Shown in pieces: positions 4,179-16,447 of a stretch of DNA of 64,000 bases. Each line of letters begins with the position of its first letter. Position 1 is the stretch's first letter. The notes below the pieces were generated by a model. The model was not told the origin of the DNA. It did not search any database and saw nothing but the letters and a program-made list of their open reading frames with translations. The translations under genes were made by a program, and so were the position numbers. The stretch lies in assembly GCA_937136455.1 (NCBI GenBank), contig CAKZOO010000030.1, positions 62,001 to 126,000 on the forward strand, in the 5' to 3' direction. The DNA is from an uncultured Flavobacteriaceae bacterium (GTDB lineage Bacteria > Bacteroidota > Bacteroidia > Flavobacteriales > Flavobacteriaceae).

Positions 4179-5353
4179 AATTAAACTATTTACATACGAT
4201 TCTCTTCATTTTTGTGGGATTCATATCCAATGCACAAGATCAAGATTCAACAGATTGGGAAGTCTACGGTTATTTCAATGGAGTATTTAGCAGTATTACA
4301 CAAGAGAATCAGTTTGAAGGAATGGATTATTTAATTCATCATCGATTAAATGTAGATGGGTATTTTAATGATAAACTGAGTTTTCATGCAGGAATGAGAA
4401 ATCGACTCATTTGGGGCTATTCACTTCAAAACATCCCCAATTATTCCTCTTATATCAATCAGGACGGAATGGATATCAATCTTGGCAGCTTGTGGATGGA
4501 TTCTAAAAAATTTGTGGGACATACTGTCTTCGATCGATTGAATCTTGAATTAGAAACCAATAAGTGGCATATGGTATTGGGTCGACAACGCGTGAACTGG
4601 GGCAAGAATTTGGTTTGGAATCCCAATGACTTATTTAATGCCTTTAATTATTTTGATTTCAATTATCCTGAACGACCAGGTGTTGACGCTTTGAGAATTC
4701 AATACTACCTTTCTGGAGATGCTTCCTTAGAATGGGTGAGTAGTTATGATCAATTTAAAAATCAGCGAATCACAGCCCTGCGCTATGCAACGCATCTAGG
4801 TCAATACGATTTTCAGTTACTTGGGGCTGATTACAAAGACTATTTAGCATTGGGAATGGGCTGGGAGGGAGCCATTAATGCGATCGGTTTTAAAGGAGAA
4901 ATGACTTATTTTACCCCTGTTTTTTTTGATTCTTTGGTGGGTTCTTCGCAATCAATGCTAAATATTTTTCAATTCTCCCTGTCTTTTGATTATTACTTTA
5001 AAAATGGCTGGTATGTATTGTTTTCTAATTTGTATAATTCCCAGGGAATTTCAGGTGCAGATGTAAGTTCTTCGCTCTTCTCCAATTCGAGAGTTGATGT
5101 TACGAGCTTGATGCCCAATAAAAACACTTATTTAATTCAGCTTTCAAAACCGATCAATGCTCAATTGTCAACTTCACTTACAACATTATATGCGAGAGAG
5201 CTCAAGGCCTATTTCGCAATGCCACAACTCTCGTGGAGTCTATCTCAAAATTGGGATATCAATTTAATTGGTCAGTTGTACTATTCAAAAGCGACTACTG
5301 ATTTTAGTAGTTCCACCTCCAATATCTTTATTCAACTGGGGTATTCTTACTGA
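4175..5353 (+). CDS. Predicted outer-membrane beta-barrel protein of the exporter cassette
   Basis: The 392-residue protein has a signal peptide (cleavage after about residue 20, SNA-Q), alternating hydrophobic and polar residues throughout, and the aromatic C-terminal strand ending FIQLGYSY expected for BAM-dependent barrels. A segment near residues 125-165 (VLGRQRVNWGKNLVWNPNDL) resembles the RQxxxWG...NPxD pattern of porin-like families such as DUF1302 and alginate-export barrels, but I cannot assign a family. The start overlaps the ATPase stop (ATGA), so it belongs to the same operon as the LolA-like carrier and permeases. It may be the outer-membrane receiving or exit component. The stop overlaps the convergent DUF3365 gene by 7 bp. 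Confidence 0.7.
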   Translation: MKLNYLHTILFIFVGFISNAQDQDSTDWEVYGYFNGVFSSITQENQFEGMDYLIHHRLNVDGYFNDKLSFHAGMRNRLIWGYSLQNIPNYSSYINQDGMDINLGSLWMDSKKFVGHTVFDRLNLELETNKWHMVLGRQRVNWGKNLVWNPNDLFNAFNYFDFNYPERPGVDALRIQYYLSGDASLEWVSSYDQFKNQRITALRYATHLGQYDFQLLGADYKDYLALGMGWEGAINAIGFKGEMTYFTPVFFDSLVGSSQSMLNIFQFSLSFDYYFKNGWYVLFSNLYNSQGISGADVSSSLFSNSRVDVTSLMPNKNTYLIQLSKPINAQLSTSLTTLYARELKAYFAMPQLSWSLSQNWDINLIGQLYYSKATTDFSSSTSNIFIQLGYSY

Positions 5354-5910
5354 GGATTGTCGTAGATAATCTTTAAAAGTCCTCTGAGTTCTCCATCGCT
5401 AAATCCCGTTGCTAAATCGTTTGGATAAAGCTCATAAAGAGTGCTTTTTACCGATTCTGATATCTGCGTTGTTCCATGGCAGTTTAAACAGAGAGGAGAA
5501 TCGATATAAATGGGAGCGTAGAATAATTTTTGTGAACCCGTTTGAAATAGTTTGGGATTTTTGCTCTTTGACTGATTGTACTGTTCAATCAAGGATAATT
5601 CAAAGCGAGATGCTTTGTTGAGAAGATTTCTGTTTCTGTGACTAACTCTTGAAAAGGACAGCTGTTTGGCCTTAGAAATGCTATCTGTTAATGGAATAGC
5701 ATTGGTGTTGCAGAATTTGATTGCTTCTTCAATGCCACCATTGGTGATCGCTGTCTTGAGATTGCTCTTAAGGGTATTGCTGTACTCTTTAGCGTATAGT
5801 TTGCTTCTCGACATCAATTCAGGGTCATTGAATTCAACGGTCTTATCAGTGCAACTAATTGAAAAAGATAATGCGCATAACAGTACAAATCTGTATAAAG
5901 ATGTATTCAC
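5347..5910 (-). CDS. DUF3365 haem-binding lipoprotein (c-type haem, Tll0287-like)
   Basis: The 187-residue protein begins with a lipoprotein signal sequence ending LSFSISC, lipidated at about C20, so it is a membrane-anchored periplasmic protein. It contains a single c-type haem attachment motif CLNCH (C141, C144, H145) and the conserved AIKFCN element (C67) and GFSDGELRGLLKI tail typical of DUF3365 domains, which bind one haem and are suspected redox or sensory modules. It is monocistronic or loosely linked to the creatininase-like gene behind it. A 7-bp inverted repeat (TTAACTT / AAGTTAA) sits 11-29 bp upstream of its start. Function beyond haem binding is not known. Confidence 0.8.
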   Translation of the reverse strand: MNTSLYRFVLLCALSFSISCTDKTVEFNDPELMSRSKLYAKEYSNTLKSNLKTAITNGGIEEAIKFCNTNAIPLTDSISKAKQLSFSRVSHRNRNLLNKASRFELSLIEQYNQSKSKNPKLFQTGSQKLFYAPIYIDSPLCLNCHGTTQISESVKSTLYELYPNDLATGFSDGELRGLLKIIYDNPQ

Positions 5911-5920
5911 GATTTCTGTA

Positions 5921-5939
5921 TTAACTTCTATAAAGTTAA
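5921..5939 (-). promoter_or_regulatory. Inverted repeat upstream of the DUF3365 gene
   Basis: TTAACTT and AAGTTAA are perfect 7-bp arms separated by 5 bp, lying 11-29 bp upstream of the DUF3365 start on the minus strand. The minus-strand reading contains TAACTTTA, one base off the flavobacterial -10 box. It may be an operator over a promoter. In AT-rich DNA this could also be chance. Confidence 0.3.
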
Positions 5940-5970
5940 CGATTTACATCAAACAGCTGTCCATTTAAAA

Positions 5971-6831
5971 TTAGTGTTTTACATTCTTAAAGTATTCTTC
6001 TTGTAGCTTAAGAGATTGCTCATCGGCTTTTACATCTTTAATAGCCTTAACCAATGATGATACCATAGAATCTGAAAGCAGTTTTCCTAACTCTACAGTC
6101 GATACTTCTGCCTCACCTGCATAGTGGTTTGGAAAAGAAGCATACCACCAGATTGCGGTATACAAATCAGATGAGAGCTTTAGTCTTTTTTGATCTTGAC
6201 CTGAGTCCTTGTGAACGTAATCCATTTTTACTAATTCAGGTCTTAAATGCATTAGCATCGAAGTTTCTTTTTCTCCTCCATGCATATCAAATGAAGGATC
6301 TGATTTTCTGAGTTTAGCAGCTTTCTTAGCATCAGCTTCTGGCATTTTTGGATCAAAGAAATAAACGACATAATCGCGTTTCTTTTCCATTTGATTCTGA
6401 ATAAAATAACGAATCATTTGAGGGTTTCCACCGTGTCCATTGACAATTAAAATACGTTTAAATCCATTTCTTCCCAATTCCTGACAAGTAGCTTCAAGTA
6501 GTTCCATGGCTAATTTGCTTGGAATCGAAAATGTTCCAAACTGTTGTCTAGCTTCATTTACCTGACCGTAAAAATAGTCTGGAAAAACTACTGCGTATTC
6601 TTCTTTAGTAGCCATTGCAGACCACTCTCTAACCTTGATAAGGTCAGAACCGATTGGACCATGCGGTCCGTGTTTCTCTAAAATACCAATAGGCAAAACA
6701 CAAGTGTAATTTGATTTTTCAAGAGCTGTCTCCCAATCAGTTGCGGTGAGTTCATCCCACCTAGAAGGAAGTTCTTGTGAAAAACTAAAAATGCTCGTTA
6801 GTAATAAGAGGGTTAAAGCAAAGTGTTTCAT
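5971..6831 (-). CDS. Exported creatininase-family metallo-amidohydrolase
   Basis: The 286-residue protein shows the creatininase-fold metal-site motifs: GILEKHGPHGPIGSD (E52, H54, D63), NGHGGNPQ (residues 131-138) and DMHGGEKETS (H184, E189). Family members hydrolyse cyclic or linear amides, such as creatinine and the pterin or riboflavin intermediates handled by MftE-like and ArfB-like enzymes. Unlike the usual cytosolic enzymes, this one starts with a clear signal peptide (hydrophobic residues 4-17, SFSQ), so it should act in the periplasm or outside. Residues match the binuclear site well, so activity is likely; the substrate is unknown. A 23-bp hairpin-forming repeat lies 20-42 bp upstream of its start. 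Confidence 0.75.
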   Translation of the reverse strand: MKHFALTLLLLTSIFSFSQELPSRWDELTATDWETALEKSNYTCVLPIGILEKHGPHGPIGSDLIKVREWSAMATKEEYAVVFPDYFYGQVNEARQQFGTFSIPSKLAMELLEATCQELGRNGFKRILIVNGHGGNPQMIRYFIQNQMEKKRDYVVYFFDPKMPEADAKKAAKLRKSDPSFDMHGGEKETSMLMHLRPELVKMDYVHKDSGQDQKRLKLSSDLYTAIWWYASFPNHYAGEAEVSTVELGKLLSDSMVSSLVKAIKDVKADEQSLKLQEEYFKNVKH

Positions 6832-9675: not shown

Positions 9676-11340
9676 TTATTTAGTTTTAGCTAGTTCTCCT
9701 TTGTTTAAATTGACTACTTTGTTGGCATAGGTCTTCCAGTATTGATTGCTGCTCACAACAACAAGGGTCCACTGCTGATTTGGATCTGACAAATAATCGA
9801 TAATTTCTTTAGTTTCAGAGCTGCTAAACTGATCTAAAGCATCCTCTAAAATCAACAGTTGAGGTTTCTTTAAAATCGCTCTAGCCAAAACGATCTTTTT
9901 ACTATTGGTATGAGAGATTTGCTTTCCTTCAGGATAAATCACTGTATTTAAACCTTGTGGTAATTCTTTTAAAAACAAACTCAATCCAACCTTGTCCAAT
10001 ACTTTGTAGATCTCTTCATCTGAAATCGATGGATCTCCAAAGCTTAAGTTCTCTCTTAAGCTTCCTTCAAAAGGATATTCTTCAGAAAGTGAAAGTCCTA
10101 ATTGAGAACGATAGTGATTGAGGTAAATTCCCTCAGAATTGAGGTTGTTGATAAACAGACTTCCCTCTGAAGGTTTAATCAATCCTGCTAACATTCTTAA
10201 AAAGGTAGATTTTCCAGAACCACTCTCACCTTGAATCAACAGTTTGTCTCCTTTGTGAATTTTCAAATTCAGATTTGATAAAATCGCTTTTTCTCTATTG
10301 GGAACACGATAGGATACATTTTCAAATTCAATGTTTAATTCATTTTTGAGATTTACCTTTTCTCCTTCTTGTGACTCAAGTGGCTTGTCGACAACCTGTC
10401 CTAATTTTTCAATTGAGGTAAGCATGTCATAGAGGGTTTCCAATCCGACAATTAGTTTTTCTATAGAAGCAATTACTAATAAAATAATGATTTCTGCGGC
10501 TACAAATTGACCGATATTCATACGCTGCATTAACACTAATACACCGCCAATACTCAACAATCCAGCGGTAATTAACGCTTTAAAGATGATCATTTTAATA
10601 TACTGAGACTTAATTACTCCAAAGTGATTTTCTCTAGCATTGAGGTACTTTTCTACTAAAAGATCATTTTTGTGAAGAGCTAAATTGGTTTTTCCGGATA
10701 GTTTAAAGCTCACGACTGATCGAGCCACTTCTTGGATCCAATGTGCAACCTTGTACTTGTACTTAGACTCCTCTAAGCTAGTCTTTAGTCCCTTCTGAAT
10801 ACTGTATTTGAACACTAAATACACACCGCCTAAGAGCACAATTCCATACGCTATGAAGAGCGGATGGTAAAAGGATAGGAGTAAGAGTGCAAAAACAACT
10901 TGTAGTAAAGCAGCTGGTACATCGATTAAAATTTTAGTCAATCCTTTCTGGATCGTCAAATTGTCAAAAAAGCGATTCGCAAGCTCAGGTGGATAGTAAT
11001 TTCTGAGTTCTTCCATCGTCATCTTTGGAAAACGATAACTGAGTTCGAAAGAAGACTTAGTAAAGATGCGTTGTTGCATGGTTTCAATAATGCGTAGCTG
11101 CATCAATTGAAGGATTCCATTGAAGGCAGCACCAAGAGTAACCAATACGATAAGAACGATCCACGAGGAGGATATTTCAGCTCCTTGAATCAGGTTGATA
11201 ATCGCTTGTATTCCTAAAGGTAGGGACAGTGCCACTATTCCTGAGAAGAGTGCATAGTAGAATATTTGAAAGATATCCTTTCGTTCAATCGATAGTAAAT
11301 TGAAAAAACGGTCCCAAGGACTTAAAGGTGAATTATTCAT
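9676..11340 (-). CDS. ABC exporter with fused membrane and ATPase domains; NBD motifs strongly altered
   Basis: The 554-residue protein joins a six-helix exporter domain (about residues 25-310) to a nucleotide-binding domain (about 335-554), as in HlyB/MsbA half transporters but without an N-terminal peptidase domain. Walker A is intact (GESGSGKST, 371-379). Other ATPase motifs are not: the signature LSGGQ reads ISHTN (475-479), Walker B ends LLILED (residues 495-500) so the usual Asp-Glu is replaced by Glu-Asp, the switch histidine position reads VVVSSN (about 530), and the Q-loop region reads SLSEEYPF with no Gln. Homology of the flanks (KKIVLARAILKKP) shows these are true substitutions, not frameshifts. 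It sits between tetR and hlyD genes, so a tripartite exporter is the likely assembly, but ATP hydrolysis may be atypical. Confidence 0.8.
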   Translation of the reverse strand: MNNSPLSPWDRFFNLLSIERKDIFQIFYYALFSGIVALSLPLGIQAIINLIQGAEISSSWIVLIVLVTLGAAFNGILQLMQLRIIETMQQRIFTKSSFELSYRFPKMTMEELRNYYPPELANRFFDNLTIQKGLTKILIDVPAALLQVVFALLLLSFYHPLFIAYGIVLLGGVYLVFKYSIQKGLKTSLEESKYKYKVAHWIQEVARSVVSFKLSGKTNLALHKNDLLVEKYLNARENHFGVIKSQYIKMIIFKALITAGLLSIGGVLVLMQRMNIGQFVAAEIIILLVIASIEKLIVGLETLYDMLTSIEKLGQVVDKPLESQEGEKVNLKNELNIEFENVSYRVPNREKAILSNLNLKIHKGDKLLIQGESGSGKSTFLRMLAGLIKPSEGSLFINNLNSEGIYLNHYRSQLGLSLSEEYPFEGSLRENLSFGDPSISDEEIYKVLDKVGLSLFLKELPQGLNTVIYPEGKQISHTNSKKIVLARAILKKPQLLILEDALDQFSSSETKEIIDYLSDPNQQWTLVVVSSNQYWKTYANKVVNLNKGELAKTK

Positions 11341-12019
11341 TCGAATTAGTGTTTAAAGTTCGTATAGCTAAATCTGTTAAAAAGAATTTAGGGATGTCAC
11401 TATCGTGACAATCAGTTAGTGTTTTGAAATGCTTGTTTAAGAAGTGTTGATGAAGACTTGATTCGACTATGGTACTTGCCAAGCTGCTTGGGTAATTATA
11501 AGAAGAATCTACGTCATATATCATTTCTTTTAGTCTTAATACAAGACTCTTATAAACATTGAAATATCCTTCTTTATTTTCTTTATCGACTTCTTTTGTC
11601 AAGAAGGATTTGGAATTTTCATTAATGATGATTCGATGAAGGGTCACTTCATTGATATGGGTAATACTACTGTCTTCAACAACAGGTTTTGAAATTACTT
11701 CAATGGCTTTTTTGAGTTTTTCAATGGGATTGTTTAAACTGTGTGTTTCAATGACCATTTGATACTCAATCCAAGTCCAATACCAAGAGGTTAAATAGCT
11801 CAAAAGCTTGTGTTTGTTTTCAAAATAACGATAGATAGAACTCTCGTTAGACCCAATGCGTTCTCCTAGTTTTTTAAATGTGAATGCTTCATAGCCAATT
11901 TCATCGATGAGTTCAATGCTCTCTCTTACAATACGCTTACCCAAATCAGAGGATTCAGGGTCCTTATTGTAGATAGAATCAGCAACAGTTATTTTAAAGT
12001 TAGCTAACATGTTAATCAT
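11333..12019 (-). CDS. TetR/AcrR-family repressor of the tripartite exporter operon
   Basis: The 228-residue protein has a TetR-type N-terminal helix-turn-helix: IVRESIELIDEIGYEAFTFKKLGERIGSNESSIYRYFENKHKLLSYL, followed by a variable helical ligand domain. The ATG at 12019 is chosen over an in-frame TTG at 12043 because the TTG falls inside the -10 box of the promoter found here (TATATTTG, 12048-12041 on the minus strand). A further ATG three codons on is also possible. The gene is first in the operon and overlaps the ABC gene by 8 bp. A 17-bp perfect palindrome in the promoter spacer suggests it represses its own operon, with release by a transported compound. Confidence 0.8.
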   Translation of the reverse strand: MINMLANFKITVADSIYNKDPESSDLGKRIVRESIELIDEIGYEAFTFKKLGERIGSNESSIYRYFENKHKLLSYLTSWYWTWIEYQMVIETHSLNNPIEKLKKAIEVISKPVVEDSSITHINEVTLHRIIINENSKSFLTKEVDKENKEGYFNVYKSLVLRLKEMIYDVDSSYNYPSSLASTIVESSLHQHFLNKHFKTLTDCHDSDIPKFFLTDLAIRTLNTNSNE

Positions 12020-12040
12020 AACATTTAATCTTATTTTGTG

Positions 12041-12073
12041 CAAATATAATAGTAATACTATTAATAATGCAAA
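12041..12073 (-). promoter_or_regulatory. Promoter of the TetR-exporter operon with an embedded palindromic operator
   Basis: On the minus strand a -33 TTTG (12073-12070) and a -10 TATATTTG (12048-12041) are separated by 21 bp, close to the Bacteroidota consensus. A perfect palindrome, TAATAGTA-A-TACTATTA (12047-12063), fills most of the spacer and touches the -10 box. It is well placed for a TetR dimer to block RNA polymerase. Predicted transcripts start about 15 nt before the ATG at 12019. Confidence 0.6.
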
Positions 12074-12318: not shown

Positions 12319-12335
12319 ATGCTCTTAAGCGGATG

Positions 12336-12366
12336 CAAATATAAATTCAAATTGCGGAAAACCAAA
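12336..12366 (-). promoter_or_regulatory. Flavobacterial promoter of tRNA-Phe
   Basis: On the minus strand TTTG (12366-12363) and TATATTTG (12343-12336) are separated by exactly 19 bp, an excellent match to the TTTG-N19-TAnnTTTG consensus of Bacteroidota. Transcription would begin a few bases before the tRNA 5-prime end at 12318. Confidence 0.75.
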
Positions 12367-12417
12367 CAAAAACATAAAAAAAGCACTTCGTTTTTATTCT
12401 TTTTTTTTCTTTGTAGT

Positions 12418-13152
12418 ATGAATCTAGTTTTAGACATTGGAAATACAAGAGTGAAAGCAGCTGTTTTTAAGGAAGATAAGCTTGTTGATCATTGGGTCTG
12501 GGAGCGATCCGCTGCACTTAAAAATACTGAGGGTTTAATAGGTCGATTGTCAATTGCAAATACGATGGTGGCATCTGTTGGTGGAGAATTTAAAGAGCTT
12601 ATTGCTTTTTTGGAAGCCTCTGTGCCTAATTTTTTTGTGTTGACTTTTATGTCAGCACTTCCATTTATAAATGCGTATAAGACTCCTATGACTCTTGGTG
12701 TCGATCGATTAGCGGTCGTTGCAGCAGCTCAGTTTTTATATCCAAACAAAAATTGTTTGATCGTCGATGCGGGGAGTTGTATTACTTATGAATTATTGAC
12801 TAGTTCAGGTGTGTATTTAGGAGGAGGAATCGCTCCTGGAGTTCAAATGAGGTATAATTCAATGAATACTCAAACAGCAGCATTACCTCTTTTATCTAGA
12901 CCTGATTATGTCAATACTTATGGAACTAGTACTGATACCTGTATGCATTCAGGGGTTGTTTTAGGGGTCTGTTACGAAATAGAGGGCTGGATTCGTTCAG
13001 TTAATACCGAACTAGAAAATTTAACAGTGATTTTAACAGGAGGAGATGCTAAATACTTGTCTAAACAATTAAAAAACACCATATTTGCGAATCCCAATTT
13101 AGCCTTGATTGGTATTAATCAGTTACTTCAATATCAGATAACGCATGCTTAA
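12418..13152 (+). CDS. coaX: Type III pantothenate kinase
   Basis: The 244-residue enzyme performs the first step of coenzyme A synthesis, ATP-dependent phosphorylation of pantothenate in the cytosol. It has the ASKHA-fold motifs of the CoaX type: DIGNTRVKAAV (phosphate loop, residues 5-15), GVDRLAVVAAA and DAGSCITYELL, then GGGIAPGVQMR and a late LTGGDAKYL. The ATG at 12418 is used because the frame upstream of it runs back towards the tRNA-Phe gene and has no family resemblance. The end overlaps the next gene by 8 bp, so it heads a conserved-looking envelope cluster that runs to the PpiD-like gene. Confidence 0.9.
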   Translation: MNLVLDIGNTRVKAAVFKEDKLVDHWVWERSAALKNTEGLIGRLSIANTMVASVGGEFKELIAFLEASVPNFFVLTFMSALPFINAYKTPMTLGVDRLAVVAAAQFLYPNKNCLIVDAGSCITYELLTSSGVYLGGGIAPGVQMRYNSMNTQTAALPLLSRPDYVNTYGTSTDTCMHSGVVLGVCYEIEGWIRSVNTELENLTVILTGGDAKYLSKQLKNTIFANPNLALIGINQLLQYQITHA

Positions 13153-14410
13153 GAGAATTTTATTAGTATTTTTTATAGTCCTAGGGACACAAATCCACGC
13201 TCAAAAATACACTTCATCTCCCTATTCCTATGTTGGATTTGGTGAGCTGTTATCTTCTACAACTGTAGAGAATCAAGCAATGGGGAAAATGAGTATGTAT
13301 ACTGATAGTATACACCTAAACTTAAACAACCCAGCAGCACTTGGTAAATTAAAAGTGACCAATTACGCTATTGGATTGTCTTCATCCTACTCTTCATTGG
13401 CATCTGACTCTCAGAAATCAGATAACCTCGCCTCTCGATTGGAGTATATTGGAGTTTCATTTCCACTTGCTAAGAAATTAGGTTTTAGTTTTGGAGTGAT
13501 GCCTTTTACGGCTATGGATTACCGTCTCTACGCTGAGAGTTCTGACAGTGACGGTACAGAGCTTGACAATATTTTCTCAGGAAGTGGGAATATCAATAAG
13601 TTGTATTTCTCATTAGGAACAAAACTTTTCAAGTATTTAGATGTAGGTGCATCTATGTATACTAATTTTGGAACGATTACTAAGGAACGCATTCAATCAA
13701 TTCCTGAAGTTTTTAACGGAACCATCGATCGAAGAACTTCACGTCTAAGAGGAGTGAATTACAATTTATCTGCTCACTTGCAGCTTCCATTAACTGAAAA
13801 ACTCGATTTATATGCTTCAGCTATTCACACTTCTGTTAATGAATTGTCAAGTGAGAATTTAAAAGAAATTGGAACCGTGAATTTGGAAAATGGAACTGAT
13901 ATTGAAGTTAATTCTGTTGATCTTTCGTTAACTGGTTTGGATCAAACCAGTCTGGTTTTACCCTCAAAGAATTCAATTGGAGTTGGTTTTGGAACTGACA
14001 AGTCTTGGTTTTTTGGGGCTCAATATAGCAGTTCTGACTTGTCGAATCTAGAAAATGATTTCTTGTCTCAATCCAATGTGAGTTATCAAAAAAGCTCTTT
14101 GATAAGTGTTGGAGGATTTTTTATTCCTAATGCGAGTAATTTTGCGTCTTATTTCCAAAGATCAGTATACCGAGCAGGAGTTCACTTATCGAATACAGGA
14201 TATGTGATTAATAATCAAGAAATAAAAGACTTTGGCGTGAATTTTGGTATAGGTATACCAGTGGGAGGCGTATTGTCTAATTTAAACACTACTTTGAGTC
14301 TTGGAACTAGAGGCACAAAAGAATCTGGTTTGATCAAAGAAAACTATGTTAAATTGAAGATAGGCTTATCATTAAATGATATTTGGTTTGCTAAAAGACA
14401 GATTAATTAA
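13145..14410 (+). CDS. Predicted outer-membrane beta-barrel protein of the coaX-lptC cluster
   Basis: The 421-residue protein has a signal peptide (QIHA-Q, about residue 19) and then the SPYSYVGFGE...NPAALG opening typical of FadL/PorV-like Bacteroidota barrels. Many alternating strands and glycine/serine-rich turns follow. No enzyme motif is visible and I do not recognise a named family. It overlaps coaX by 8 bp, so the two are cotranscribed. Its closing ~55 codons carry the promoter-like sequence of the next gene. A role in outer-membrane protein or lipid handling would fit the lptC neighbour, but that is only context. Confidence 0.65.
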   Translation: MLKRILLVFFIVLGTQIHAQKYTSSPYSYVGFGELLSSTTVENQAMGKMSMYTDSIHLNLNNPAALGKLKVTNYAIGLSSSYSSLASDSQKSDNLASRLEYIGVSFPLAKKLGFSFGVMPFTAMDYRLYAESSDSDGTELDNIFSGSGNINKLYFSLGTKLFKYLDVGASMYTNFGTITKERIQSIPEVFNGTIDRRTSRLRGVNYNLSAHLQLPLTEKLDLYASAIHTSVNELSSENLKEIGTVNLENGTDIEVNSVDLSLTGLDQTSLVLPSKNSIGVGFGTDKSWFFGAQYSSSDLSNLENDFLSQSNVSYQKSSLISVGGFFIPNASNFASYFQRSVYRAGVHLSNTGYVINNQEIKDFGVNFGIGIPVGGVLSNLNTTLSLGTRGTKESGLIKENYVKLKIGLSLNDIWFAKRQIN

Positions 14411-14419
14411 TTAAATTTG
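14387..14419 (+). promoter_or_regulatory. Flavobacterial promoter for the TPR protein gene
   Basis: TTTG at 14387-14390 and TAAATTTG at 14412-14419 are separated by 21 bp. The -10 box lies just past the stop of the preceding barrel gene, giving a leader of about 40 nt that contains the tandem repeat AAACTAATAAACTAAT just before the ATG. Confidence 0.5.
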
Positions 14420-14468
14420 TAAGCTTTAAAACCATTGTGTAAGAAATACAAACTAATAAACTAATAAA

Positions 14469-15842
14469 ATGAAAAAGAATTTGTTGATACTGGCTATTGC
14501 AGTTTTAGGCTTTATTAAATTAGGTCAGGCCCAGGCTCAAAATCCTGAGTGTTTAACTAATTTATCGATCTACACCGAATATGTTAAAGTAAAAAATTAC
14601 GATGCTGCCTATGAGCCGTGGAAGCAAGTTTATGAAGCTTGTCCTTCGTTAAACTGGGCTAACTTTTTATACGGTGAACGCATCCTAAAAGATAAGATTG
14701 AGAAGTCAGAAGGGTCAGAGAAATCAACCTACATCACTATGTTGTTGGATTTGTTTAAAAATTCTCAAGAGTACTTTCCAAAGAAAGTGAAATTAGCTGA
14801 CGTTAAAACGGATGTGGCACTTTTGATGAATGATGAAAAATTGGCTTCTAAAGAAGAGGTTTTCAATATTCTACACGAGGGTTTTACGAAAGATCAGAAA
14901 AACTTTAAAAACCCTAAAGCACTCTATTTGTATTTCTCAAATTTAGTGGACTTGCACGAAGAGGGGATAAAAGATCTCAATGAGGTTTTTTCAATTTACG
15001 ATGAGGTAGTGAATCAAATTGACATTCAGTTTGCAAGCCTCAACGCCACATCATTAAAATTACAAGAAAAAGAGGAGGCTGGAACACTTTCGTCAAGAGA
15101 TCAACGTATGTTAAAGGTAGTTGAATCAAACTCTAAGGCATTTGATCAAATCGCTAGTTCGATCGATACCAAATTAGGACGCTTGGCGGATTGTGATAAT
15201 TTAATCCCTCTATACGAGAAAAACTTTGAAGCGAAGAAAGGTGATGTTAAATGGGTAAAAGGTGCTGTAGGTAGAATGTTTTCTAAAGAATGTACTGACG
15301 ATCCAATGTTCGTAAAATTGGTTGAAGCACAAACAGCTTTAGATCCATCTGCAGATACTTATTTTTATTTAGGTATGTTGAAACAAAAGCAAAATGATTC
15401 AAAGGGAGCAGTTGAAAACTTTAACAAGGCGGTAGAATTGGAGACAAATGCTGCTAAGAAATCTTCTATTCTCTATAAAATTGCTTTATCTTATAAGAAT
15501 ACTTCTAAATCCAAAGCTAGAGATTTTGCTCTAAAAGCTGTTGCTGAAGATGGTTCTAATGGAAATGCTTATTTATTAATAGCTAACCTTTATGCTAATT
15601 CAGCTAACGATTGTGGTGAGACTACTTTCGAAAAGAGAGCTATTTACTGGAAAGCTGCTGAAATGGCTAAGAAAGCAGGTCGTGTAGATCTTAAACTCAG
15701 AAAGCGAGTAGAACAAACTGTTGAGAGTTATGAGCAAAGAGCTCCATCTAGAACTGATATCTTTGAATCAGGTATGGCTGGAAAAGTTCTTACGTTCAAA
15801 TGTTGGGTTGGTGGAAGTGTAAAAGTTCCGACTTTAGATTAA
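14469..15842 (+). CDS. Exported tetratricopeptide-repeat protein
   Basis: The 457-residue protein begins with a signal peptide (about residues 1-24, ending near GQAQAQ) and is otherwise helical. TPR-like repeats are clearest near the C-terminus, for example YFYLGMLKQKQNDSKGAVENFNKAVEL followed by ILYKIALSYKNTSKSKARDFALKAV. The N-terminal half has a Cys pair (CLTNL, EACPSLNW) compatible with a disulfide. It is a periplasmic scaffold of unknown partner. Its stop overlaps the lptC start (TAATG), so coupling with LPS transport genes is likely. Confidence 0.75.
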   Translation: MKKNLLILAIAVLGFIKLGQAQAQNPECLTNLSIYTEYVKVKNYDAAYEPWKQVYEACPSLNWANFLYGERILKDKIEKSEGSEKSTYITMLLDLFKNSQEYFPKKVKLADVKTDVALLMNDEKLASKEEVFNILHEGFTKDQKNFKNPKALYLYFSNLVDLHEEGIKDLNEVFSIYDEVVNQIDIQFASLNATSLKLQEKEEAGTLSSRDQRMLKVVESNSKAFDQIASSIDTKLGRLADCDNLIPLYEKNFEAKKGDVKWVKGAVGRMFSKECTDDPMFVKLVEAQTALDPSADTYFYLGMLKQKQNDSKGAVENFNKAVELETNAAKKSSILYKIALSYKNTSKSKARDFALKAVAEDGSNGNAYLLIANLYANSANDCGETTFEKRAIYWKAAEMAKKAGRVDLKLRKRVEQTVESYEQRAPSRTDIFESGMAGKVLTFKCWVGGSVKVPTLD

Positions 15843-16447
15843 TGAATTCAAAAAATACCCATATGGGATTTGTAATAGCCACAGTATTTACTGTGGCTTT
15901 GCTTTTTAATTCATGTGAGTCAAAAGACCAGAGTGAATTAATGGGTATTGATTCTAAAGTGTTTCCGCAGGGAATAGCTAAAAATTTCAAACTCTATTAC
16001 AACGAATACAAGGAAAATAGGAGTGAGTTAATCGCAGTTAGAGATACGACTTCTCTATCTGCAATTTTAGAGGCTCAGTTGAGTGAAGATTACCAACAGC
16101 TGATATTTCCTTATAGAATTTTTCCACAAGGATTGAAGTTGACTCTTATCGATGATGATGGTGCTCGAACATACATCAACGCTGATTATGGAAAACTTTA
16201 TGTGATGACTTCTATGGTTGATTTGAGAGGAAATGTTTTGATAGAACTTCCAGATGGTTCAACTCTTGAAACAGATCAGCTTTATTGGGATCGAGAAAAT
16301 GATTGGGTCTTCACCGATAGAGATTTTAAATACACCAATCGAGAAGATAATAGTCTAATGAATGGCAAAGGAATGGATTTTAAAAGAGATTTTACGTATT
16401 TTAATGCCCATCAAACCTATGGTACCATGGTTTTAAAAGAAGAATAA
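15842..16447 (+). CDS. lptC: LPS export ABC transporter periplasmic protein LptC (lipoprotein form)
   Basis: The 201-residue protein has a lipoprotein signal with lipobox LLFNSC (C25) and the short OstA-like beta-jellyroll of LptC: IDDDGARTYINADYGKLY, DLRGNVLIELPDGSTLETDQLYWDRENDWVFTDRDF and TYGTMVLKEE. Phrases such as NMKG-type GKGMDFKRDF are typical of the family in Bacteroidota. LptC links the inner-membrane LptBFG extractor to the periplasmic bridge. The ATG at 15842 overlaps the upstream TAA and is preferred over an upstream start, which lies inside the TPR gene; a second ATG seven codons on is possible. Confidence 0.85.
   Translation: MNSKNTHMGFVIATVFTVALLFNSCESKDQSELMGIDSKVFPQGIAKNFKLYYNEYKENRSELIAVRDTTSLSAILEAQLSEDYQQLIFPYRIFPQGLKLTLIDDDGARTYINADYGKLYVMTSMVDLRGNVLIELPDGSTLETDQLYWDRENDWVFTDRDFKYTNREDNSLMNGKGMDFKRDFTYFNAHQTYGTMVLKEE

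Follow-up and report, generated by a model that had tools for sequence, protein, structure and literature searches.

The exporter gene at 9676-11340 of the stretch analysed here (the window, 64,000 nucleotides from an uncultured Flavobacteriaceae bacterium) raises the question of what drives a transporter whose ATPase has kept Walker A and lost its other catalytic motifs. A sequence-only reading had described an intact frame with altered Q-loop, signature, Walker B and H-loop and a kept Walker A, and each of these residues was verified by coordinates; the frame is open across the whole interval and lies on the minus strand, which that reading had left unstated, the plus strand there being rich in stop codons. 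The product, of 554 residues, retains the Walker A lysine and lacks the Q-loop Gln, LSGGQ, the Walker B Asp-Glu and the switch His (Table 1), and it has no N-terminal domain ahead of its transmembrane domain (TMD). Pfam identified ABC_tran at 74.9 bits, with two other P-loop models under the cut-off. It is proposed, with a probability of roughly 0.55, that this protein is the inner-membrane pseudo-ATPase half-exporter of a TetR-linked tripartite exporter, resembling a type I secretion system with HlyD and TolC, and that it is not run by ATP hydrolysis at its own sites.

Table 1. Features of the exporter locus in window coordinates; the last row gives positions within the loci named.
Feature	Position	Strand	Evidence or note
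TetR-family regulator, first gene of the operon, overlapping the ABC start by 8 nt	11333..12043	-	
ABC half-exporter gene, proposed pseudo-ATPase	9676..11340	-	PF00005, 74.9 bits; model pLDDT 83; type IV exporter fold
TMD, aa 20-320, most conserved part of the family	10381..11283	-	alignments, model
PPELANRFFD motif, aa 117-126, cytoplasmic, TM2-TM3	10963..10992	-	alignment; helices from predicted model
Glu283, predicted TM6	10492..10494	-	alignments
Degenerate nucleotide-binding domain (NBD), aa 336-553	9682..10335	-	Pfam, model, dN/dS
Walker A GESGSGKST, aa 371-379, intact	10204..10230	-	coordinate translation
Q-loop position LGLSLSEE, Ser419, without Gln	10078..10101	-	alignment, coordinate translation
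Signature position ISHTN, aa 475-479, against LSGGQ	9904..9918	-	alignment, coordinate translation
Walker B LLILED, Glu499-Asp500 against Asp-Glu	9841..9858	-	alignment, coordinate translation
Switch-His position, Ser531	9748..9750	-	alignment, coordinate translation
HlyD-family periplasmic adaptor, 448 aa	8326..9672	-	TIGR01843, 98.9 bits, below cut-off 208.65
TolC-family outer-membrane protein, 462 aa	6941..8329	-	PF02321, 111.1 bits
ABC exporters upstream of the family gene in five other loci	L278 5362-7176 (605 aa); L295 71-1924 (618 aa); L296 9758-11692 (645 aa); L297 3-1733 (577 aa); L298 4248-6068 (607 aa)		

The ABC, HlyD and TolC genes stand together in the window as a type I secretion gene set, both partner genes, already noted in the earlier reading, directly following the ABC gene, and the same order occurs in 142 of 148 loci (some genomes are represented twice), with a co-directional TetR gene immediately ahead of the ABC gene in 110 of the 148. 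At four of the six exceptions (L071, L096, L105 and L114) the sequence ends 1-1213 bases past the ABC frame; the real exceptions are L194, without either partner, and L196, with no TolC match. Divergent from the operon, on the plus strand at 12319-16447, lie genes for a type III pantothenate kinase (coaX), a BamG-family protein (NF053685, 382 bits), a TPR protein and LptC, and phmmer matches to these four neighbours were found in none of the 148 loci. On the minus strand at 5347-6831, 3' of tolC and separated from it by a gap of 109 nt, are a creatininase-family and a Tll0287-like gene; only one of the 148 loci, L120 from an 85% relative, has both, which places them outside the conserved operon.

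Of 60 genomes searched, 30 (the one the window comes from among them) contain a match at E 1e-60 or better, and the Q-loop Gln, LSGGQ, the exact Asp-Glu and the switch His occur in 0 of these 30. Together with the best 80 of 582 relatives, from Polaribacter, Tenacibaculum, Maribacter, Winogradskyella, Formosa, Aquimarina and others, they form a Flavobacteriales-centred set of 110 rows (107 distinct sequences, the window protein counted), in which the nearest named relatives are Flavobacteriaceae. The sequence-only reading had looked to homologues with the same operon to show whether the substitutions are conserved: all four motifs are absent in 109 of the 110 rows, mostly inside the same TetR-ABC-HlyD-TolC operon, the sole exception (L107) retains Asp-Glu only, and no close homologue with canonical motifs was found in the set. 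Read by column, the Q-loop Gln, the second signature Gly and the switch His are each present in 0/110 and the exact Asp-Glu in 1/110; the Walker A Lys is kept in 108 and the A-loop aromatic residue in 107. Controls were 21 ABC exporters, 18 of them taken from weak matches and chosen before their motifs were seen and three from the window's own genome. In the same columns they have the Q-loop Gln, the signature Ser, the second Gly, the Walker B Asp and the Walker A Lys in 21 of 21, the Walker B Glu in 19 and the His in 20, and given that these exporters are near-canonical there, the motif loss in the window protein exceeds chance. The replacement motifs are themselves patterned, with Pro-Glu-Gly-Lys/Arg-Gln before the signature, Lys-Lys-Ile/Leu and Glu/Lys-Asp-Pro-Leu, and Trp is found at position 524 in 106 of 110 rows. 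The earlier statement that the switch His is Ser is correct for the window protein and fails as a rule for the family, whose residue there varies across the 110 rows (Ser in 21, Gln in 21, Asn in 18, Phe in 11, others).

Two explanations can be set aside. A sequencing or frame error is ruled out by the recurrence of the same motif states in independent genomes, and recent decay of one gene by losses common to relatives down to 37% identity together with a dN/dS of the NBD well below 1. For the latter, 16 of 26 close pairs were taken, six of which had no usable dS and among which L019 and L117 each appear twice (dS between the window and L011 is saturated); over the ten usable pairs the median dN/dS is 0.062 for the NBD versus 0.025 for the TMD, and the NBD ratio is below that of the TMD in three. 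Purifying selection still acts on the NBD in the window's lineage. This raises the possibility of a cryptic ATPase, which would hydrolyse ATP slowly by means of the altered Glu-Asp Walker B and the conserved replacement motifs, and the retained Walker A and A-loop, the selection on the NBD and the presence of two acidic Walker B residues in 67 of 110 rows all fit such an enzyme. It is nevertheless improbable: Lys stands in place of the Mg-binding Asp in 30 of 110 rows, no row at all has the Q-loop Gln, the second signature Gly or the His, and there are relatives, their operon being the same, that are without Walker A or without any NBD. Where slow or no ATP hydrolysis had been suggested, it is the absence of hydrolysis that we strongly infer from the motif loss, reinforced by the relatives without Walker A or NBD.

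The suggestion of a distinct subfamily is backed by a tree of the TMD and by profile scores. The tree holds 129 rows, 11 near-duplicates having been left out of 140, and these comprise 109 family rows (99 with an NBD, nine without and the contig-cut L270) and 20 outgroup rows; they come from two overlapping samples of 395 genomes (phylum and class), with canonical ABC exporters as the outgroup, and in the phylum sample only three candidates per genome were scored, so that absences there mean little. The family rows split from the outgroup with an SH-aLRT of 99 on a branch of 3.1, in quick trees whose support is SH-aLRT only, whose outgroup branches are very long and whose deep order is tentative. 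A profile of the 110 rows scores the family at 337-979 bits versus 103-174 for canonical exporters, with a gap between. For the window protein no NCBIfam model reaches its curated cut-off among the best 25 of 171 families, LssB giving 202 versus 693 bits; the A2 profile matched generic exporters. The family is thus supported as distinct from canonical ABC exporters. In PHROGs the best match of the window protein is phrog_2392, a family of phage 'moron' ABC transporters, whose 259 bits exceed the score of any NCBIfam model and pointed to ABC genes carried by phages; in a phage collection all matches to the window protein are under 60% identity, the 15 listed lying at 21-30%. The AlphaFold2 model of the window protein (pLDDT 83; NBD blocks mostly 84-92, and 74 near the signature) has the fold of a type IV ABC exporter, a six-helix TMD fused to an NBD, and the 50 Foldseek hits listed, with TM-scores of 0.71-0.89, include TM287/288, PCAT1, Sav1866 and the HlyB/D complex; compared by sequence, the TMD alone (aa 1-330) matched no solved chain at E up to 1.

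Across the wider family the ATPase erodes in steps, from basal members with Asp-Glu and His, through loss of the four motifs, to loss of Walker A in several lineages and finally of the NBD. In a wider alignment of 109 NBD-bearing rows (not the same 109 as in the TMD tree) the Walker A Lys is present in 103, the Q-loop Gln in 8, the second signature Gly in 13, the Walker B Asp in 22 and Glu in 25, and the His in 12, and all four motif groups are lost in 84. Ten near-basal rows retain Asp-Glu and His (L192, L193, L195-L199, L219, L268 and L269), three of them with LSTGQ, and Walker A is gone in L217 and L232, in L240 and L246, and in L292, L312 and L313. Among the 5886 pairs of NBD-bearing family members, 5739 have a TMD identity above that of the NBD, the means being 51% for the TMD and 33% for the NBD. 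The same holds for 22 of the 45 pairs formed by the basal rows keeping Asp-Glu and His, and for 4 of 16 control pairs, which were drawn from only five small groups and show the reverse in 12. Several frames of 719-839 aa, among them L186-L191, L192, L193 and L195-L197, have about 145-250 aa ahead of the TMD, and in the four of these extensions that were scanned no Pfam match was found.

The last step is seen in at least nine genomes among the matches listed, where the frame is 334-361 aa long and encodes the TMD only (L180-L185, L221, L224 and L227). These nine rows form one clade (SH-aLRT 99) nested among NBD-bearing rows, with L190 as its sister (98), and hlyD followed by tolC comes after the TMD gene in all nine. 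In seven of these loci the TMD gene and the hlyD frame, taken from its first Met, share an 8-nt overlap, and in the other two the TMD stop codon lies 40 and 66 nt ahead of that Met; given that the genes abut or overlap, there is no room for an NBD between them. In the two TMD-only proteins that were scanned, ABC_membrane was the sole Pfam match. When six of the loci were read gene by gene, the sole other match to an ABC profile was a 286-aa ABC_tran protein at L180, an ordinary ABC_tran gene past tolC and a histidine-kinase gene, which was set aside; the P-loop gene at L182 is AAA_21. A further candidate of 353 aa (L270, genome G661) has a frame that reaches the contig end and was removed from the NBD-less count, while being kept in the tree. 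The model of an NBD-less protein (pLDDT 77) has the same helix order as the window model; its Foldseek query TM-scores of 0.32-0.58 are modest, so the fold rests mostly on homology.

Relatives are also found outside the phylum. A search of plasmid proteins with an NBD-less TMD gave 22 records, from Persicobacter, Aureibacter, Riemerella and, in 15 cases, Sphingomonadales, the latter at 24-29% identity. Eight of the 15 were read: Walker A is lost in all eight, and ABC, HlyD and TolC follow in order in seven. In the eighth (L316 3689-6433, a plasmid of Sphingopyxis sp. 113P3) the ABC frame is truncated close to an annotated IS3-family transposase. The Sphingomonadales form their own clade (97) beside the Bacteroidota family (94), the two being joined against the outgroup (94), and given that basal Bacteroidota members keep catalytic residues, the two groups probably lost theirs independently, as far as the tentative deep tree indicates. 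Six of the Sphingomonadales genes are annotated, three as 'ABC transporter ATP-binding protein' and three as 'ABC transporter transmembrane domain-containing protein'.

What has been conserved throughout this erosion is a set of TMD residues. Glu283 is found in 108 of 109 NBD-bearing rows, 9/9 NBD-less rows, all eight Sphingomonadales read and 0 of 21 controls, and Lys132, Ser192 and Lys195 are likewise kept in the three groups and absent from the controls. Residues present in at least 90% of NBD-bearing rows and kept in the NBD-less clade include Glu86, Lys132, Lys136, Glu191, Ser192, Lys195, Tyr196, His239, Glu283, Lys295 and Lys312, each in 0/21 controls, of which 16 have Arg at position 312. 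All eight Sphingomonadales retain Lys132, His159, Ser192, Lys195 and Glu283; they do not retain Lys254, Glu294 and Lys295. Judged from predicted helices and hydropathy, Lys254, Glu283, Glu294 and Lys295 would lie in the membrane parts of TM5 and TM6 and most of the others in the cytoplasm. The PPELANRFFD stretch, a putative coupling helix in the predicted model, retains its core of Asn122, Arg123, Phe124 and Phe125 in the NBD-less relatives. It could be argued that the TMD dimer is a scaffold only, anchoring HlyD and TolC without transport while the substrate enters from the periplasm, given that the NBD is dispensable in one clade that retains both partners in 9/9 loci; this is very unlikely, although the argument against it, that the TMD core and the TM6 charges are conserved more tightly than a mere anchor needs, is a weak one.

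The cytoplasmic side of the TMD is conserved even in members without an NBD, as if something docks there, and this is the best argument for an ATPase acting in trans. In such a heteromeric pump the degenerate subunit would pair with, and be energised by, the product of a gene at another place in the genome, either a canonical ABC half-exporter or a stand-alone NBD, an arrangement like that of heterodimeric exporters in which one site is degenerate. Five loci of one subclade (L278 and L295-L298) have an ABC exporter directly upstream in the same direction, with canonical motifs read in L295-L298, and it is possible that this is a partner or a coincidence; furthermore, the NBD-less genomes are rich in other ABC proteins, some of stand-alone size (the best listed, in G317, has 348 aa and 87 bits). 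However, this arrangement is unlikely for several reasons. First, no second ABC exporter was found in the window operon, and hence no partner half-exporter alongside, and among the relatives the upstream canonical gene was seen in that one subclade only. Second, of 16 ABC-like places in the window's own genome four were inspected beyond the window locus (L148-L151, 18-19 kb), and these, three of which have exporter-type genes, showed no HlyD or TolC match. Third, with Walker B, His and signature all lost in one chain, pairing with a canonical subunit would be expected to impair both composite sites. Finally, a stand-alone NBD of the family was not seen, the matches of stand-alone size that were listed reaching at most 87 bits versus 411 for the NBD-bearing sister G246, although a generic NBD would be compatible with these scores.

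Returning to the proposal of a pseudo-ATPase half-exporter, its homodimer would not derive its energy from hydrolysing ATP at its own sites. The NBD of the window's lineage would still fold, would probably bind ATP by way of Walker A and the A-loop aromatic residue, and may have a structural or regulatory role. The signature and the Q-loop serve to clamp ATP and to link it to the TMD, and their loss may free the TMDs from a lock by bound ATP. Substrate movement would then be driven by a force other than ATP. The most plausible such force is an ion gradient that acts on the TMD, with the family-invariant TM6 carboxylate Glu283 as the candidate ion site by conservation and predicted position; a downhill gradient of the substrate would be a less likely driver. 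A proton-coupled TMD would be plausible. In the portions of the published texts available, MsbA engineered without its NBD exports ethidium with a pH gradient, less efficiently than the wild type, and full-length MsbA with a crippled Walker A is driven by the pH gradient only without ATP, added ATP trapping it in an inactive state (PMC4979069); the membrane domain of LmrA is there described as secondary-active (PMC6155054). Because ATP traps the Walker A-crippled MsbA, an inactive NBD still able to bind ATP could by analogy act as a brake, and if the physics of MsbA holds here, loss of the signature and Q-loop can be conjectured to be a way out of the trap. The truncation work on MsbA and LmrA reportedly stems from one research line. 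The selection on the NBD and on Walker A suggests that nucleotide matters in the window's lineage, which speaks against the preferred reading. A wider scenario, in which the whole of this natural and widespread family evolved away from ATP, the TMD docked to HlyD and TolC being an ion-coupled transporter whose ATPase first became a pseudo-enzyme and was then deleted at least once, is offered tentatively, as a possibility that is open to considerable doubt.

Both the fold and the operon are already known from type I secretion. In its operon with HlyD and TolC and in near full-length profile matches the window protein is like the type I secretion and peptide-exporting ABC transporters (TIGR03375 LssB, TIGR03796 and TIGR03797 NHLP, HlyB, PCAT1), and its type IV fold is like that of PCAT1 and the HlyB/D complex 8dck (TM-score up to 0.89 among the 50 hits listed); it differs from them in the loss of the hydrolysis motifs and in scores far below the cut-offs. 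Heterodimeric exporters (TM287/288, TmrAB and TAP) share the overall fold and the loss of catalytic residues in one NBD. In TM287/288 and TAP the partner subunit carries the catalytic residues, and TmrAB is described in the same way in the part of its source available, whereas the window operon offers no partner and the signature, Walker B and His are all lost in one chain. SUR and CFTR also keep NBDs partly, for regulation and not for transport work, with a dead site; unlike the present family they are eukaryotic, retain one catalytic site and stand in another context. The NBD-less members are also like LmrA-MD and MsbA-MD, type IV TMDs without an NBD that are reported to move ethidium by an ion gradient, but these are laboratory truncations of ATP-driven exporters, unlike a natural family, and in the excerpts available they were studied without HlyD or TolC. 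In the portions of the open-access literature covered by the search, no description was found of a pseudo-ATPase family of this kind or of a natural NBD-less type IV exporter.

Were ion coupling shown, the family would add a new kind to the energised tripartite exporters. Its members are often annotated as 'ABC transporter ATP-binding protein', and most of those sampled should not hydrolyse ATP. Transport by an ABC TMD without ATP hydrolysis has so far been argued from LmrA and MsbA truncated in the laboratory; a natural version of this experiment appears to have taken place in Bacteroidota and a second time in Sphingomonadales, the intermediates ranging from near-intact motifs to no NBD at all, and native proteins are now at hand with which transport without ATP hydrolysis may be tested.
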